Positions 5,064 through 46,392 of a stretch of 46,972 nt of DNA are shown here, one piece after another; within the stretch, counting starts at the first letter, position 1, and each line of letters starts with the position of its first letter. A model generated the notes under the pieces. That model was not told where the DNA came from. It ran no database searches and was given only the letters and a program-made list of their open reading frames with translations. The position numbers and the translations under genes were made by a program. Source of the DNA: an uncultured bacterium (lineage in GTDB: Bacteria > Nitrospirota > Thermodesulfovibrionia > Thermodesulfovibrionales > CALJEL01); the NCBI GenBank assembly GCA_938074335.1, contig CALJEL010000043.1, positions 1-46,972 of the forward strand, written 5' to 3'.

Positions 5064-5342
5064 CCCTATTTTGCCGATACCCTACTGGCAGGCTGCCTCA
5101 AAGTAGTGCTACAGTGCGACAGCACACCTGACGGTGAAGTGAGTTAGGGATTAGTGAATTAGTGAATTAGTGAATTAGTGAATTAGAAAATACTAACTCA
5201 CTAACTCACTAACTCACTTGCATACTAACTCACTACTTTAACTCACTTGCATACTAACTCACTACTTTAGCTCTGTCGCACTACTAAGGTGTCGCTATAA
5301 AGGCCTTTTGGCATACTGCATTACTCTCTCAGCAGTTTAGGG
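5064..5342. repeat. Dispersed hairpin repeat, copy A
   Basis: Fills the gap between scpB and gltX. The left end is CCCTATTTTGCCGATACC, and the right end (read inverted) is CCCTAAACTGCTGAGAGAG. The 5' arm contains repeated TTAGTGAA units (5139-5186) and the 3' arm contains ACTAACTC/CTAACTCAC units (5189-5266). The two arms are complementary and would form one long hairpin. The left 55 bases recur inverted at 32640-32693. A 57-base stretch (5111-5167) recurs identically at 46103-46159. The right 65 bases match copy C. No open frame runs through it. Confidence 0.75.
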
Positions 5343-5394: not shown

Positions 5395-6804
5395 ATGAGT
5401 TCAAAGGTAAGGGTAAGATTTGCTCCAAGTCCTACAGGTCATCTTCATATTGGTGGTGCACGGACAGCACTCTTTAACTGGCTCTTTGCCAGACACAATA
5501 AGGGTGTTTTTATCCTGAGGATCGAGGATACAGACAGAAGCCGTTCAACAGAGGAATATATTGAGGCTATTATTGAGGGAATGAAGTGGCTCGGGCTTGA
5601 CTGGGACGAGGGACCATACAGGCAGACAGACAGGCTTGAGATTTATAAGAGTTATGTCAATAAACTTTTAAAGGAGAACAAGGCCTATTATTGCTATTGC
5701 TCACCTGAGGAGCTTGAGGAAAGAAGGCGGCTTGCCCTTGCACAGGGAAAGCCCCCAAAGTATGATGGCCGCTGCAGAGAACTTAAAGAACCGGTTCCCG
5801 GAAGGATCCCTGCTGTCAGGTTCAAGATGCCGCAGGCCGGTACTACAGTAGTGGATGATCTTATAAGGGGAAGGGTTAGCTTTGATAATGAGCAGCTTGA
5901 TGATTTTATAATAATGCGTTCAGATGGCACTCCCACATATAATTTCTGCGTGGTGGTGGATGATGTTGATATGCGGATAACCCATGTAATAAGGGGTGAT
6001 GACCATCTTAATAACACACCAAAGCAGATACAGATATACAGGGCCTTGAATTATGAGATACCTCAGTTTGCTCATCTGCCCATGATACTCGGGGCAGATA
6101 AAACAAGGCTCAGCAAGCGTCATGGTGCAACCTCTGTTATGGCCTATAAGGAGATGGGTTATCTTCCCGAGGCCTTACTGAATTATCTTGTCAGGCTTGG
6201 CTGGTCTTATAAGGATCAGGAGATATTCTCAAAGGAAGAGTTGATTGAGAAGTTTAGCCTTGAAAATATCGGTAAGTCTGCTGCTGTCTTTAATCCTGAA
6301 AAACTTCTCTGGCTTAACAGCCATTACATAAATGCCTCTACACCTGAAAGACTCTATGAGCTTGTAAGGCCCTTTCTTATAAAGGAAGGTATTATAAAAG
6401 AAGATACAGAGATAGATATACAGTGGATATCAAAGGCAATTGCCACACTAAAGGAAAGGTCAAGGACACTTGTAGAGCTTGCAAATTCCCTCAGATATTA
6501 CATCATTGATGATATAGAGATTGATGAGGAGGCAAAAGAGAAGTTTATAAATGAAAAAACAATTGGTTATCTAAGACGGGTGAGGGAGCTTCTTTCTGGC
6601 ATGGATGGTTTTGAAAGTAAAACCCTTGAAGAGGCATTCAAAAAACTTATCAGTGAATTAGGAGTAAAGCTTTCAGAGGTTGCCCAGCCGTTGAGGGTAG
6701 CAATCACAGGAAAAACAGTGAGCCCTCCAATATTTGATGTGCTTTCAGTAATCGGTAAGGAAAGGACACTCAGGCGTCTTGACAGGGTCATAAAGACTTT
6801 ATAG
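5395..6804 (+). CDS. gltX: Glutamyl-tRNA synthetase
   Basis: A class I aminoacyl-tRNA synthetase that charges tRNA-Glu (or both tRNA-Glu and tRNA-Gln in organisms using the amidotransferase route). The 469-residue length is normal. The HIGH motif is HLHIG at residues 16-20 and the KMSKS-type motif is RLSKRHG at 238-244. A zinc-site pattern, C100-x-C102 with Y123 and C127, matches the E. coli Cys-x-Cys...Tyr-x3-Cys arrangement. The C-terminal helical anticodon-binding region follows. gpsA starts two bases after the stop, so the genes are probably co-transcribed. Confidence 0.97.
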
Positions 6805-26871: not shown

Positions 26872-27222
26872 CCCTCAATTTGCCGATAGAAATGCATTTT
26901 CATCGGGGTTCACGGGGTGAAGCTTGTCTTCACCCCGTGCTCTAATGGCGGGGTATGCCTCAAAGCCTTCTTAGAGCAGCAGAGCAGTAGTGCCAGTAGC
27001 ACAGACATTCTTGTCTGTGGCTTACGCAGCAGTTTTTATTGATAGAACAGCAGTGCAGTAAAGCAGTAGTTTTTATTGAGGAATTTCTTTTTTATTATTT
27101 AACTGCTGCTCTGCTGCTCTATTAAGGTGTCGCAGACGGGGTCCCCAGAAAATCGTCAGATTTTCTGGGGTGCTGATATTGCCTTTTCGGCATCCCCCGC
27201 CATTCATATCGGCAGTTTAGGG
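26872..27222. repeat. Dispersed hairpin repeat, copy B
   Basis: The 351-base element has ends CCCTCAATTTGCCGATAG and, inverted, CCCTAAACTGCCGATATG. Inner palindrome arms pair: AATGGCGGGGTATGCC (26944-26959) with GGCATCCCCCGCCATT (27189-27204). It also holds perfect 12-base hairpins at 26911-26939 and 27143-27170, an eight-base hairpin CACAGACA/TGTCTGTG near 27000-27020, and AGCAG/CTGCT simple-repeat arms. Bases 27079-27183 recur inverted in copy D at more than 90% identity by eye. No gene runs through it. Confidence 0.75.
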
Positions 27223-30725: not shown

Positions 30726-32246
30726 ATGAATAAGTGGCTTATTACATTAACAGTGATGCTTCCTACCCTGATTGAGATCATTGATACATCAGTGGTGAAT
30801 GTATCACTTGATCATATAAGGGGAAGTCTTTCTGCCGGTATAGAAGAATCCACCTGGACCATCACATCCTACCTTGTATCAAATGCCATAATCATACCCA
30901 TGACAGGATGGCTGAGCAGGAGATTTGGCAGGAAGCGCTATCTTATCTTTTCAATCTTTCTTTTCACCGCCAGTTCCTTTCTCTGTGGTTCTGCCTGGAG
31001 CCTCGGGAGCCTTGTATTCTTCCGTGTCCTTCAGGGAATAGGTGGGGGAGCACTTCAACCACTCAGTCAATCCATACTCCTTGAGACCTTCCCACCTCAT
31101 CAGCATGGAACAGCAATGGCAGCCTTTGGAATAGGGATAATGTTTGGTCCCATTGTGGGTCCACTGCTTGGAGGATGGATAACTGATAACTGGTCATGGA
31201 GATGGATATTTTATATAAATATTCCCGTAGGGATAATATCCATTCTTATGACAGTATTTTTTATAAAAGACCCTCCATATATGAAGGGAATGAAACTCAG
31301 GATTGATTACTGGGGAATAATGTTTCTTGCCCTGGGGCTTGGATGCCTTCAGGTTGTCCTTGACAAAGGCCAGAGTGAAAACTGGTTTGACTCAAGGTTT
31401 ATTACTATCCTTACTATTATATCCTTTATCTCCCTTGTACTCTTTGTGATAATTGAATTTTTTACAGTCCATCCAGTGGTCAATCTCAGGGTCTTTAAGG
31501 ATCTCTCCTTCAGTACAGGTAATATTGTAATGTTCTTTGCCTTTTTCAATCTCTTTGGAAGCATAGTACTCCTGCCCATATATCTTCAGACCCTTATGGG
31601 ATATACTGCAACAAAGGCAGGTATGGTGCTTGGCCCGGGTGGTCTTGCAACCCTAATTGCACTTCCCATTGCAGGAAGACTCGTTCATAAGATAAACCCT
31701 AAGATAGTCCTTGGAGCCGGGATACTTATTAGTTGTTATTCAACTTATCTCATGTCAAATTTTAATCTTCAGGCTGATTTCTGGAGCATAATCTGGCCAA
31801 GGATTGTCCTTGGTATTGGCATGCCCTTTATATTCATATCCCTCACAATACTTACCATGGCAGGAATAAAAAAAGAAGAGATGGGAAATGCTACAGGCAT
31901 ATATAATCTCCTGAGGAATCTTGGTGGAAGTTTTGGCGTTGCCTTTGTCACAACAATGCTTCAGAGAAGGGCACAGTTTCACCAGTTCAGGCTTGTGGAG
32001 AATCTTACCGTATTTGATCCCCAGCTTCAAATAGCCTCTGAAAATCTCTCCCAGGTTTTTGAATTTAAAGGATATGGGCCCCTTTCTGAATACTCAGGTC
32101 TTACAGTAATCTACAGGGAACTTTTAAGGCAGGCCTCCATGCTCGGATTCAATGATGCCTTTTATCTGTTGAGTATAATGATGATAGGAGTATTTTCCCT
32201 GATCTTTCTTCTTAAAAGACCGGTTGTATCTCCTGGCAGAGGTTAA
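30726..32246 (+). CDS. emrB: EmrB/QacA-family MFS drug exporter (DHA2)
   Basis: A 506-residue, 14-segment proton-coupled exporter. Seen: LPTLIEIIDTSVVNVSL (TM1 with motif D1), GWLSRRFGRKR (motif A), RVLQGIGGGALQPLSQSILL (motif B) and GPIVGPLLGGWITDNWSWRW (motif C). With the upstream adaptor and channel it forms an EmrAB-TolC-type tripartite pump. It is the last gene in the TetR-controlled operon; a decayed DUF3782-like copy begins nine bases after the stop. Confidence 0.95.
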   Translation: MNKWLITLTVMLPTLIEIIDTSVVNVSLDHIRGSLSAGIEESTWTITSYLVSNAIIIPMTGWLSRRFGRKRYLIFSIFLFTASSFLCGSAWSLGSLVFFRVLQGIGGGALQPLSQSILLETFPPHQHGTAMAAFGIGIMFGPIVGPLLGGWITDNWSWRWIFYINIPVGIISILMTVFFIKDPPYMKGMKLRIDYWGIMFLALGLGCLQVVLDKGQSENWFDSRFITILTIISFISLVLFVIIEFFTVHPVVNLRVFKDLSFSTGNIVMFFAFFNLFGSIVLLPIYLQTLMGYTATKAGMVLGPGGLATLIALPIAGRLVHKINPKIVLGAGILISCYSTYLMSNFNLQADFWSIIWPRIVLGIGMPFIFISLTILTMAGIKKEEMGNATGIYNLLRNLGGSFGVAFVTTMLQRRAQFHQFRLVENLTVFDPQLQIASENLSQVFEFKGYGPLSEYSGLTVIYRELLRQASMLGFNDAFYLLSIMMIGVFSLIFLLKRPVVSPGRG

Positions 32247-32255
32247 TATTTTTTA

Positions 32256-32610
32256 GCAGGCCTGATAAAAAGGAGATAGAAAGGTTTGCAGGGCTTTTAA
32301 TAGGGTCAGGAGTCATCTGAATACGCCTGTGTATTCCTGTTTGGATATTACTATTCTCCAGAGGTAAAGAAATATTGAGATAAAGATAATCCCTCATCTG
32401 CCGATAGAAATATATTAATCCGGTAGGCCTCACACCAGTTACCTTGTAGGTGAAGGAATTTTATAGGTGAAGAGGTGAAGGGGTGAGTCTATCGCACTGT
32501 CGCACTACTAAGGTGTCTCTATAAAGGCATTTCGGCATACCGCACCATTCTATCAGCAGTTCAGGGTTAATGAAGAGCTTTGAATTTGAGATGAAGTATA
32601 AATATTTCCT
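32256..32610 (+). pseudogene. Decayed DUF3782-like copy P1, split by repeat C
   Basis: Bases 32256-32390 are a near copy of 33198-33350 of the intact gene downstream (AAAAGGAGATAGAAAGG, GTCAGGAGTCATCTGAAT), with small deletions that break the frame. Bases 32571-32610 match the intact gene's 3' end (GAAGAGCTTTGAATTTGAG). Between them sits repeat C (32391-32566). No protein can be made from it. Confidence 0.85.
32391..32566. mobile_element. MITE-like hairpin repeat, copy C, inserted in a pseudogene
   Basis: The 176-base element has ends CCCTCATCTGCCGATAGAAAT and, inverted, CCCTGAACTGCTGATAGAAT. It interrupts pseudogene P1; joining the flanks through one AAT restores the exact paralogous sequence around GATAAAGAT and GAAGAGC. 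Flanking AAT or TAAT copies are a possible target duplication. The right part (TCGCACTACTAAGGTGTC, then CTATAAAGGC) matches copy A. No open frame is inside, so mobility must be supplied in trans. Confidence 0.75.
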
Positions 32611-32639
32611 GCACCTCGTAGGTGTTGGTTCCGTTAGAG

Positions 32640-32693
32640 GCACTGTAACACTACTTTGAGGCAGCCTGCCAGTAAGGTATCGGCAAAATAGGG
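32640..32693. repeat. Isolated element end (half copy)
   Basis: This 54-base stretch is the inverted counterpart of the left end of copy A (5064-5118), with only about two mismatches, and ends ATCGGCAAAATAGGG. It lies immediately before the -10 box of the intact DUF3782-like gene. Confidence 0.75.
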
Positions 32694-32704: not shown

Positions 32705-33391
32705 ATGCATAGGGCTATAAAGATAAAAGAGAGGATAAAAAGGGTTTTCCCTGAGAAACAGGCAGGTGTGCTTGTTGAGCTCGTAGATATGGTCGATGAG
32801 ACTGTAAAGGTAAGTGATTTTAATGAACTTAAATCAATAGTGGCAGATCTTGCAAAGGCCCAGAAGGAGCTTGCTGAGGCACAGAAGAGGACAGAGCAGA
32901 GGGTAGAGGAGCTTGCCGAGGCTCAGAAGAAGACAGAGGAAGAATTAAGAAAACTGATAAAAGAGCATGAAAAGACAAGGCAGATGGTGGCAGGTCTTTC
33001 TGATACAGTTGGTTATGGTCTGGAGGATAAGATAATGCCCTATATACCTGACTTTGCAAGGAAAGAATTCGGGATAGAGACCGTACTTATAGACAGGAGA
33101 AATATAGTTTATCCAGATGGCAGGTATGATGAGGTGAATGTCTATGTGGAGGGAAGAAAGAATGGAGAGAGGGTTTATCTGATAGGAGAGTGTAAGGCAA
33201 GGCCTGGTAAAAAGGAGATAGAAAGGTTTGCAGGGCTTTTAAAGAGGGTCAGGAGTCATCTGAATGCGCCTGTGTATTCCTTTATTGTTGGATATTACTA
33301 TTCTCCAAAGGTGGAGAAATATCTCAAGGAGAAATATCCAGAGATAAAGATGATGAAGAGCTTTGAATTTGAGATGAAGTATGTAAGATAG
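32705..33391 (+). CDS. DUF3782-like protein: coiled coil plus PD-(D/E)XK nuclease-like domain
   Basis: A 228-residue protein of a family often present in many copies in thermophiles. Residues 1-40 are helical, 40-95 a coiled coil with repeats of roughly 14 residues (AEAQKRTEQRVEEL), and 98-228 a restriction-endonuclease-like fold. Possible catalytic residues are E107 (GYGLEDKI), D142 (RYDEVNVYVEG) and E162-x-K164 (IGECKAR), a complete PD-(D/E)XK set. No role is established. Three broken copies lie in the window (32256, 44111 and 46164). A half element end supplies sequence just upstream of its promoter. There is no Shine-Dalgarno before ATG. Confidence 0.85.
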   Translation: MHRAIKIKERIKRVFPEKQAGVLVELVDMVDETVKVSDFNELKSIVADLAKAQKELAEAQKRTEQRVEELAEAQKKTEEELRKLIKEHEKTRQMVAGLSDTVGYGLEDKIMPYIPDFARKEFGIETVLIDRRNIVYPDGRYDEVNVYVEGRKNGERVYLIGECKARPGKKEIERFAGLLKRVRSHLNAPVYSFIVGYYYSPKVEKYLKEKYPEIKMMKSFEFEMKYVR

Positions 33392-44110: not shown

Positions 44111-44220
44111 GGTAGAGGGAGACCTTACTTATAGACAGGAGATATATTTATCCAGATGGCAGGTATGATGAGGTGAATGTCTATGTGGAGGGAAGAAGAG
44201 ACGGAGAGAGGGTCTATCAT
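44111..44220 (+). pseudogene. DUF3782-like gene fragment P2
   Basis: A 110-base internal fragment corresponding to 33074-33181 of the intact gene (CTTATAGACAGGAG, TATCCAGATGGCAGGTATGA, then GTGAATGTCTATGTGGAGGG). It covers only the D142 region of the nuclease domain, lacks both ends, and is broken by short deletions. It lies between the Wzi-like gene and the nucleotidyltransferase pair. Confidence 0.85.
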
Positions 44221-44221
44221 C

Positions 44222-44428
44222 TTACACATCTTTTATATCCCATACAATTACATTTTTTCTGTTTCCCCAGTTTAAAGCGAGTTTCTGCAATTCAACAAGG
44301 ATCCTTATTTTTTCTTCAAAGGGAAGACTGGCCTGTTCTTTATGCGTTTTTTCTTGTTCTTCAAATAACTCTTTTAAGGTAATTATTCTATTGTCTTTTG
44401 TCAAGATTTTTATCTTTTCTTCACTCAT
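44222..44428 (-). CDS. Small protein downstream of an AbiEii-like nucleotidyltransferase
   Basis: A 68-residue, mostly helical and charged protein (EEKIKILTKDNRIITLKELF, then FEEKIRILVELQKLALNWGN). I do not recognise it. It overlaps the nucleotidyltransferase gene by eight bases and is the second gene of that two-gene minus-strand unit, the arrangement of a toxin-antitoxin pair. Its partner role is inferred from position and size only. Confidence 0.5.
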   Translation of the reverse strand: MSEEKIKILTKDNRIITLKELFEEQEKTHKEQASLPFEEKIRILVELQKLALNWGNRKNVIVWDIKDV

Positions 44429-44930
44429 TTTTATAAATAGAATTAAATCTCCCGGTTAGGTTATATTTATTTAGCAATAATTTCAACCTTTCCATATTTA
44501 TCTCTGCCTGTTGAAGTAGCAGTTGTATCTTTGCTTTATCTTTTTCTCTGAATGCCTTAAGAAATAAGGCTATTAGATACTCAGGAGAAATAACCCTTGT
44601 TTCTATTCCTTCAAACTCTATTGTAATGGCATTATCTAATGCCTCTCTTGCAAGACCCTCTGCGGGGATAAATTCTACGGGCACTCCTTCAATAATAAGC
44701 CATTGTCCTATCCATTGATTATATCCCCTGTCTTTAAGATATTCGTATATGTCAGAAAGAATTACGAGTTCTTTTTCATTAGGTTCTTTCTGTGGTATAA
44801 CAAATATATCCAAATCGCGGGTAAAAAAAGGTTCAGTCCACCTTAAGGCTGCTATTGCACCGCCAATGGCATAGTCCTTTATTAACCCCTCCCTCTTTAG
44901 CTCATTTATAACCTCTAACGTTTTTCTCAT
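44421..44930 (-). CDS. AbiEii-like nucleotidyltransferase
   Basis: A 169-residue protein of the DNA polymerase beta-like nucleotidyltransferase superfamily. The glycine motif is GGAIAALRW (23-31) and the metal-binding DxD is RDLDIFV (D39, D41). A later acidic part, EGVPVEFIPAEG, supplies the third carboxylate region. AbiEii toxins modify tRNA ends by nucleotide transfer, and related proteins act in abortive infection. The paired small gene could be its antitoxin. The AT-rich context and neighbouring gene fragments suggest an accessory region. Confidence 0.75.
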   Translation of the reverse strand: MRKTLEVINELKREGLIKDYAIGGAIAALRWTEPFFTRDLDIFVIPQKEPNEKELVILSDIYEYLKDRGYNQWIGQWLIIEGVPVEFIPAEGLAREALDNAITIEFEGIETRVISPEYLIALFLKAFREKDKAKIQLLLQQAEINMERLKLLLNKYNLTGRFNSIYKNE

Positions 44931-45975: not shown

Positions 45976-46102
45976 TATTGAAATTGTTGGCTCTGAAAGG
46001 GTATTATGCCCTCTAAATCCTCACCAAGAAAGGAGGGTAACCCAGACAGATGCAACAATTAAATTATCTCACAAAGCTTTTAGGATTTCAAGAGGCAGAG
46101 CG

Positions 46103-46159
46103 ACAGTGCGACAGCACACCTGACGGTGAAGTGAGTTAGGGATTAGTGAATTAGTGAAT
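46103..46159. repeat. Fragment of the copy-A hairpin repeat
   Basis: A 57-base stretch identical to 5111-5167 in copy A, including the GTGAGTTAGGGATTAGTGAA simple-repeat arm. It stops at 46159 and passes straight into the DUF3782-like fragment P3 (46164 onward), so element and gene remnant are joined end to end. Confidence 0.8.
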
Positions 46160-46163
46160 GGGC

Positions 46164-46392
46164 ATGAGACTGTAAAGGTAAGTGATTTTAATGAACTTAA
46201 ATCAATAGTTGCAGACCCTGTAAAGCCCAGAAGGAGCTTGCCGAGGCACAAAAGAGGACAGAGCAGAGGGTAGGGGGAGCTTGTGGAGGCACAGAAGAGG
46301 ACAGAGGAGTAATTAAGAATGTGGGGGGAAGAAGAGATGGAGAGGGGGTTTATCTGATAGGAGAGTGTAAGGAAAGGCCTGGCAAAATTTAA
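46164..46392 (+). pseudogene. DUF3782-like gene fragment P3
   Basis: A broken copy of the intact gene: 46164-46310 matches 32797-32942 (AGGTAAGTGATTTTAATGAA, the AGAGGACAGAGCAGAGGGTA coiled-coil segment), then an internal deletion jumps to the GGGAAGAAGAGATGGAGAGG and GGAGAGTGTAAG part of the nuclease region, ending near AAGGCCTGGC. Several indels and a TAA break the frame. The stretch from 46393 to 46523 shows nothing recognisable. Confidence 0.85.

Follow-up and report, generated by a model that had tools for sequence, protein, structure and literature searches.

A 175-bp MITE-like repeat with IS1380-type ends inserted in a pseudogene, and its family of relatives

Results

The window, by which we mean the whole stretch of 46,972 nucleotides analysed here, is contig C43 of a draft genome of 2.22 Mb (G000). 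Between a transporter gene (30726-32246) and an intact 228-aa gene on the forward strand (32705-33391), for which we found no Pfam match, lies P1, a degenerate forward-strand copy of the 3' part of the latter. P1, which spans 32258-32390 and 32566-32599, corresponds to the C-terminal region of its neighbour, the ungapped aligned pieces being 91-100% identical: its left part (32258-32390) matches 33200-33354, and its right part (32572-32599, family D11) is identical to 33355-33382. Besides an inserted repeat, element C, it carries a small deletion that shifts the frame and another of 18 bp, and no open reading frame runs across it, in agreement with its description as a pseudogene in an earlier sequence-only reading of this DNA. 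Approximately 70% of the 228-aa gene is missing from P1 which, together with the two other deletions, means that the insertion of element C need not be the cause of the pseudogene. The remnant of another repeat lies beside P1 at 32600-32693. The 228-aa gene is present in several copies and many fragments in its own genome, three of them in the window (32705-33391, 44119-44223 and 46145-46387). Our search of this genome for further P1-like sites returned none, the neighbouring gene being the only close intact paralogue.

Element C occupies positions 32391-32565 of the forward strand and is MITE-like: at 175 bp it is too short to hold a transposase. Its left terminal inverted repeat, CCCTCATCTGCCGATAGAA (32391-32409, forward strand), pairs with the right one, CCTGAACTGCTGATAGAA (32548-32565, read on the minus strand), with one gap. 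The element starts with CCCT and ends with CAGG, so it has the CC...GG termini characteristic of IS1380. The homology to the paralogue breaks off at these inverted repeats on both sides. The junction sequences of P1 quoted in the earlier reading are present in the window; the string GATAAAGATGATGAAGAGC of the paralogue lies at 33343-33361, two bases away from the position first assigned to it (33345-33363). Excising the element nearly rebuilds the paralogue, as had been proposed, but when one 6-bp copy is left behind the result is GATAAAGATAATGAAGAGC, which differs from the paralogous sequence at one base.

At the edges of element C we delimited a left copy of a target duplication, GATAAT (32385-32390, forward strand), and a right copy, GTTAAT (32566-32571, forward strand), identical at five of six positions; the left copy was assigned from the family statistics given below and from the paralogue, which has an uninterrupted GATGAT at 33349-33354. 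This is best read as a 6-bp duplication in which one base was later substituted; a further base differs from the paralogue. By itself a match of five in six has a probability of ~1-4% by chance, and it requires the right end to be one base shorter than that of the commonest subtype of relatives (hereafter the main subtype). The case for the duplication is made by the family evidence and by inverted repeats that coincide with the edges of homology. A duplication of 3-4 bp, AAT or TAAT, had been suggested; this is too short, since the family duplicates 6 bp (range 5-8), and corresponds to the still-identical part of the 6-bp duplication.

We then looked at the repeat in its own genome, which was read in stretches around matches. 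Element C has ~10 copies that can be aligned, many partial ones and a total of 45 matches, three of which are element C itself and the paralogue; identity among the eight C-type copies that we compared is 85-94% across aligned columns. They make up a multi-copy, non-autonomous family, with inverted CCCTNANNTGCCGATAG-type ends, which is part of a larger superfamily with a terminal motif around TGCCGATAG (226 matches, compared with 43 for a reversed-pattern control). The ends of the main subtype, CCCTAAACTGCCGATAGNAATGG and TTTCTATCRGCAAATTGAGG, gave 57 and 71 matches, with 0 and 1 in the controls, and those of the non-C subtypes are also of the CC...GG form. Main-subtype relatives that we examined span 66-545 bp, the 66-bp copy (L033) consisting of the ends and almost nothing else; one relative of 350 bp with a strong foldback lies in the window at 26873-27222 on the minus strand. 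End types are mixed within single elements (L013, L077, L080 and L108), and the window holds a mixed-end relative (5064-5342, forward strand) with a CCCTATTTTGCCGATAC end on one side and an element-C-type end on the other. The copies point to distinct bursts, those of element C being ~91% identical and those of a 210-bp main-subtype class 95-98%. Many copies lie no more than a few hundred bases from the end of a contig in the draft genome (e.g., C29, C47, C55, C67 and C84); the assembly therefore probably breaks at the repeat, and copy numbers are underestimated.

The interiors are replaceable while the ends are kept. The main subtype can fold as one long hairpin with palindromes nested in palindromes (z = -12 for 26873-27222). 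The fold of element C was no better than that of shuffled sequence (z = -0.97), and no Rfam match was found in the window. In main-subtype elements (26873-27222; L061-L080 and L118) we observed constant ends around interiors of nested palindromic modules and degenerate 8-base repeats (e.g., GAGCAGTA and GTGAAGAG), inserted or swapped like building blocks, and the long copies form extreme hairpins. Tandem 8-base repeats (e.g., GTGAATTA and ACTAACTC) were seen in repeat interiors and in intergenic DNA in inverted arrangement, at 5105-5167, 46097-46159, L013 and other loci.

To characterize the footprint of the family we used 32 well-delimited main-subtype elements of the same genome. An exact 6-bp duplication flanks 11 of them, and 15 match at five or more of six positions, a level that 2,000 flank shuffles reached in a mean of 0.7 elements and a maximum of 4. 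Mean boundary identity was highest at length 6, the mode was 6 bp, and when exact repeats of 5-8 bp with a one-base slip are counted about two thirds of these elements are duplicated. Elements with such ends in other metagenome-assembled genomes (MAGs) behaved similarly, with a duplication of at least 5 bp in 15 of 26 (shuffled mean 0.8, maximum 4). Among the eight fuller C-type copies, a clean duplication besides that of element C was found only in L008, where, with the right end placed as for element C, the repeat is bordered by two copies of TTGTAA.

Sister species G001 provided empty sites. Its corresponding copy of the 228-aa gene (L279) reads through the site without an insert. When the flanks of L035, a relative of element C, are joined, they align with an unbroken segment of G001 at 79% identity across the junction, so that the sister lacks this insertion; a loss from G001 may be an alternative. 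At a second site, L084, the joined flanks had no match in G001. Many copies together with empty sites, here in the paralogue and at the orthologous L035 site, are what is expected of a MITE. That the repeat moved as a unit, as first proposed, is borne out by the terminal inverted repeats, by family target duplications far above chance and by the orthologous empty site of the relative; the finding is confirmed as real, and it had been correctly seen as an insertion. As for L035 itself (G000:C33, ~6088-6337), it is inserted between two genes that appear, from their sequence, to encode V-type ATPase subunits, and it seems to give the downstream frame a new start and N-terminal residues, the sister having no insert.

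An exact-pattern scan of one genome per species across 85,000 species found ends of this kind in a restricted number of genomes, most of them MAGs. In L221, two such ends enclose 1,623 bp with one IS1380-family transposase gene (NF033539, 217 bits with a cut-off of 180 bits; PF13701, 86 bits), and in G053, which belongs to the same order as the genome of the window, they surround another 1,623-bp element (L250) with an IS1380 transposase scoring 242 bits; the two elements are 51% identical. The ends of main-subtype MITEs match these insertion sequence ends at up to 17 of 18 bases and another subtype matches at 18 of 18, while element C matches at 14-15 of 18 bases on the left and 12-14 of 18 on the right. 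The ends are therefore shared with elements that encode an IS1380 transposase.

IS1380 is reported to have CC...GG ends and a 4-bp target duplication (PMC10045372), whereas the mode here is 6 bp. L221 and L250, which have exactly these ends, show no duplications, the left flank of L221 being missing because the element begins at a contig end. Two other IS1380 elements with related CCC...GGG ends are flanked by 6-bp duplications, TTTAAA in L254 and CTTTAC in L291. The longer footprint is therefore a departure from the reported length that is common to these two autonomous elements and the MITEs, and element C is accordingly placed as a repeat probably mobilised by an IS1380-like subgroup, not by a typical IS1380. 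In L291 (G061:C19) the IS1380 element is followed by a further copy of its end, and CTTTAC occurs three times, an arrangement suggestive of an element and a MITE in tandem. For several of the more distant IS1380 copies, the ends could not be delimited.

In the genome of the window itself we found no intact IS1380 transposase, and a search for DDE_Tnp_1 (PF01609) returned nothing. It does hold an IS1380 relic (L270) of 236 bp with 84% DNA identity to the G053 element; the decayed piece in the sister is larger and is 74% identical over 112 aa. In this genome the enzyme has probably been lost while the family persisted, and it is possible that an intact copy is hidden in an assembly gap. A candidate autonomous copy, the 3.4-kb span from a left to a right end at L081, was rejected: it contains only ordinary-looking genes. 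In G001, a contig ends in a decayed IS1380 transposase (L266, C78:5664-6011) just downstream of the transporter-gene orthologue, a position syntenic with P1 and element C.

Discussion

Read directly from the DNA, the repeat family, the inverted repeats, the family-wide duplication, the empty paralogue, one orthologous empty site and IS1380 elements with matching ends identify element C, most likely, as a MITE mobilised by an IS1380-type transposase. We put at roughly 85% the probability that it has IS1380-type ends and was inserted, with a 6-bp duplication, by a transposase supplied in trans into an already degenerate P1. Such an enzyme would have bound both ~18-bp ends of element C and joined them with a 6-bp stagger to a GATRAT target in the non-coding P1; gap filling would then have produced the duplication now seen as GATAAT/GTTAAT. 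We infer both the agent, an IS1380 transposase since lost from this genome, and the cutting chemistry and timing of the insertion.

The alternative that deserves most attention keeps element C as a MITE of the same family and assigns its movement to another transposase family with 6-bp duplications and similar ends. The lack of an intact IS1380 transposase in its own genome and the reported 4-bp duplication of IS1380 (PMC10045372) speak for it; however, IS1380 is the only transposase found within these ends, in two genomes, IS1380 elements with related ends do give 6-bp duplications, and the search for DDE_Tnp_1 in the same genome was negative, so we regard this alternative as unlikely, at about one chance in ten of being right.

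Much less probable is an origin without any insertion, in which flanking repeats recombined, or P1 gradually diverged, to form the repeat where it now stands. The other deletions of P1 and the repeat remnant at 32600-32693 would suit such a history, but it is hard to reconcile with the same sequence and ends at many unrelated places with target duplications, with homology to the paralogue that extends, on either side, no further than the inverted repeat, and with the orthologous empty site of L035. Slightly less credible still is the view that a hairpin with a function, for instance as a terminator or small RNA, spread without transposition: the very stable hairpins of the main subtype are what would recommend it, whereas element C folds like shuffled sequence, the window has no Rfam match, and interiors are replaced while ends are kept, down to a 66-bp copy that is almost ends alone.

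Taking element C as an IS1380-type MITE, we compared it with known systems. IS1380 (NF033539/PF13701; ISEcp1, ISPme1) has similar CC...GG ends, and complete elements with the same ends as the MITEs encode IS1380 transposases; element C differs in having no transposase and in a footprint of 6 bp, against the 4 bp reported for the family (PMC10045372). The Tn3-derived TIMEs are likewise short and transposase-free, with terminal inverted repeats, target duplications and many copies; their duplications are of 5-6 bp and their inverted repeats are of the 38-bp Tn3 type (PMC4133298). Element C differs from them in its ends and in its transposase family. BOX repeats of pneumococcus combine fixed end modules with variable internal modules. 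Their modular build is alike, but clear target duplications and an identifiable insertion sequence family with the same ends were found here.

According to one report (PMC9330008), ISPme1 and ISEcp1 use downstream sequences that resemble their own end. On that account, mixed-end elements like L013, L080 and L108 would result if an IS1380 transposase paired its true end with a similar-looking sequence; the modules described there carry neighbouring genes, whereas those studied here have short interiors only. The mixed end types of L013, L077, L080 and L108 could thus be what loose end recognition leaves behind, by analogy with these systems.

The open literature that we searched names the IS1380 family and MITEs together in only two papers, and we found no description of IS1380-derived MITEs there; a search of it for MITEs together with Thermodesulfovibrio gave nothing. 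The family of element C is a new MITE family of a familiar kind with an unusual partner relationship; also unusual are the 6-bp footprint and the mosaic of nested palindromes that makes up the interiors of main-subtype elements. High copy number with distinct bursts, evidence from empty sites and, in related genomes, candidate partner transposases come together in this family. Its mixed-end elements are a natural test of how loosely IS1380 transposases choose their ends, a property described for ISEcp1 and ISPme1 capturing neighbouring genes. More tentatively, and with the odds somewhat against it, an IS1380 lineage with 6-bp duplications might have seeded a mosaic MITE superfamily across a bacterial order, and possibly further, with freely paired end types and exchangeable interiors of nested palindromes; loose end recognition would keep making short elements that here outlive the transposase gene.

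Elsewhere in the window, a HEPN-domain protein beside a nucleotidyltransferase (PF05168 and PF01909; 45063-45780, minus strand) likely forms a HEPN/MNT toxin-antitoxin pair, and a DUF2204 nucleotidyltransferase lies near it at 44424-44930.
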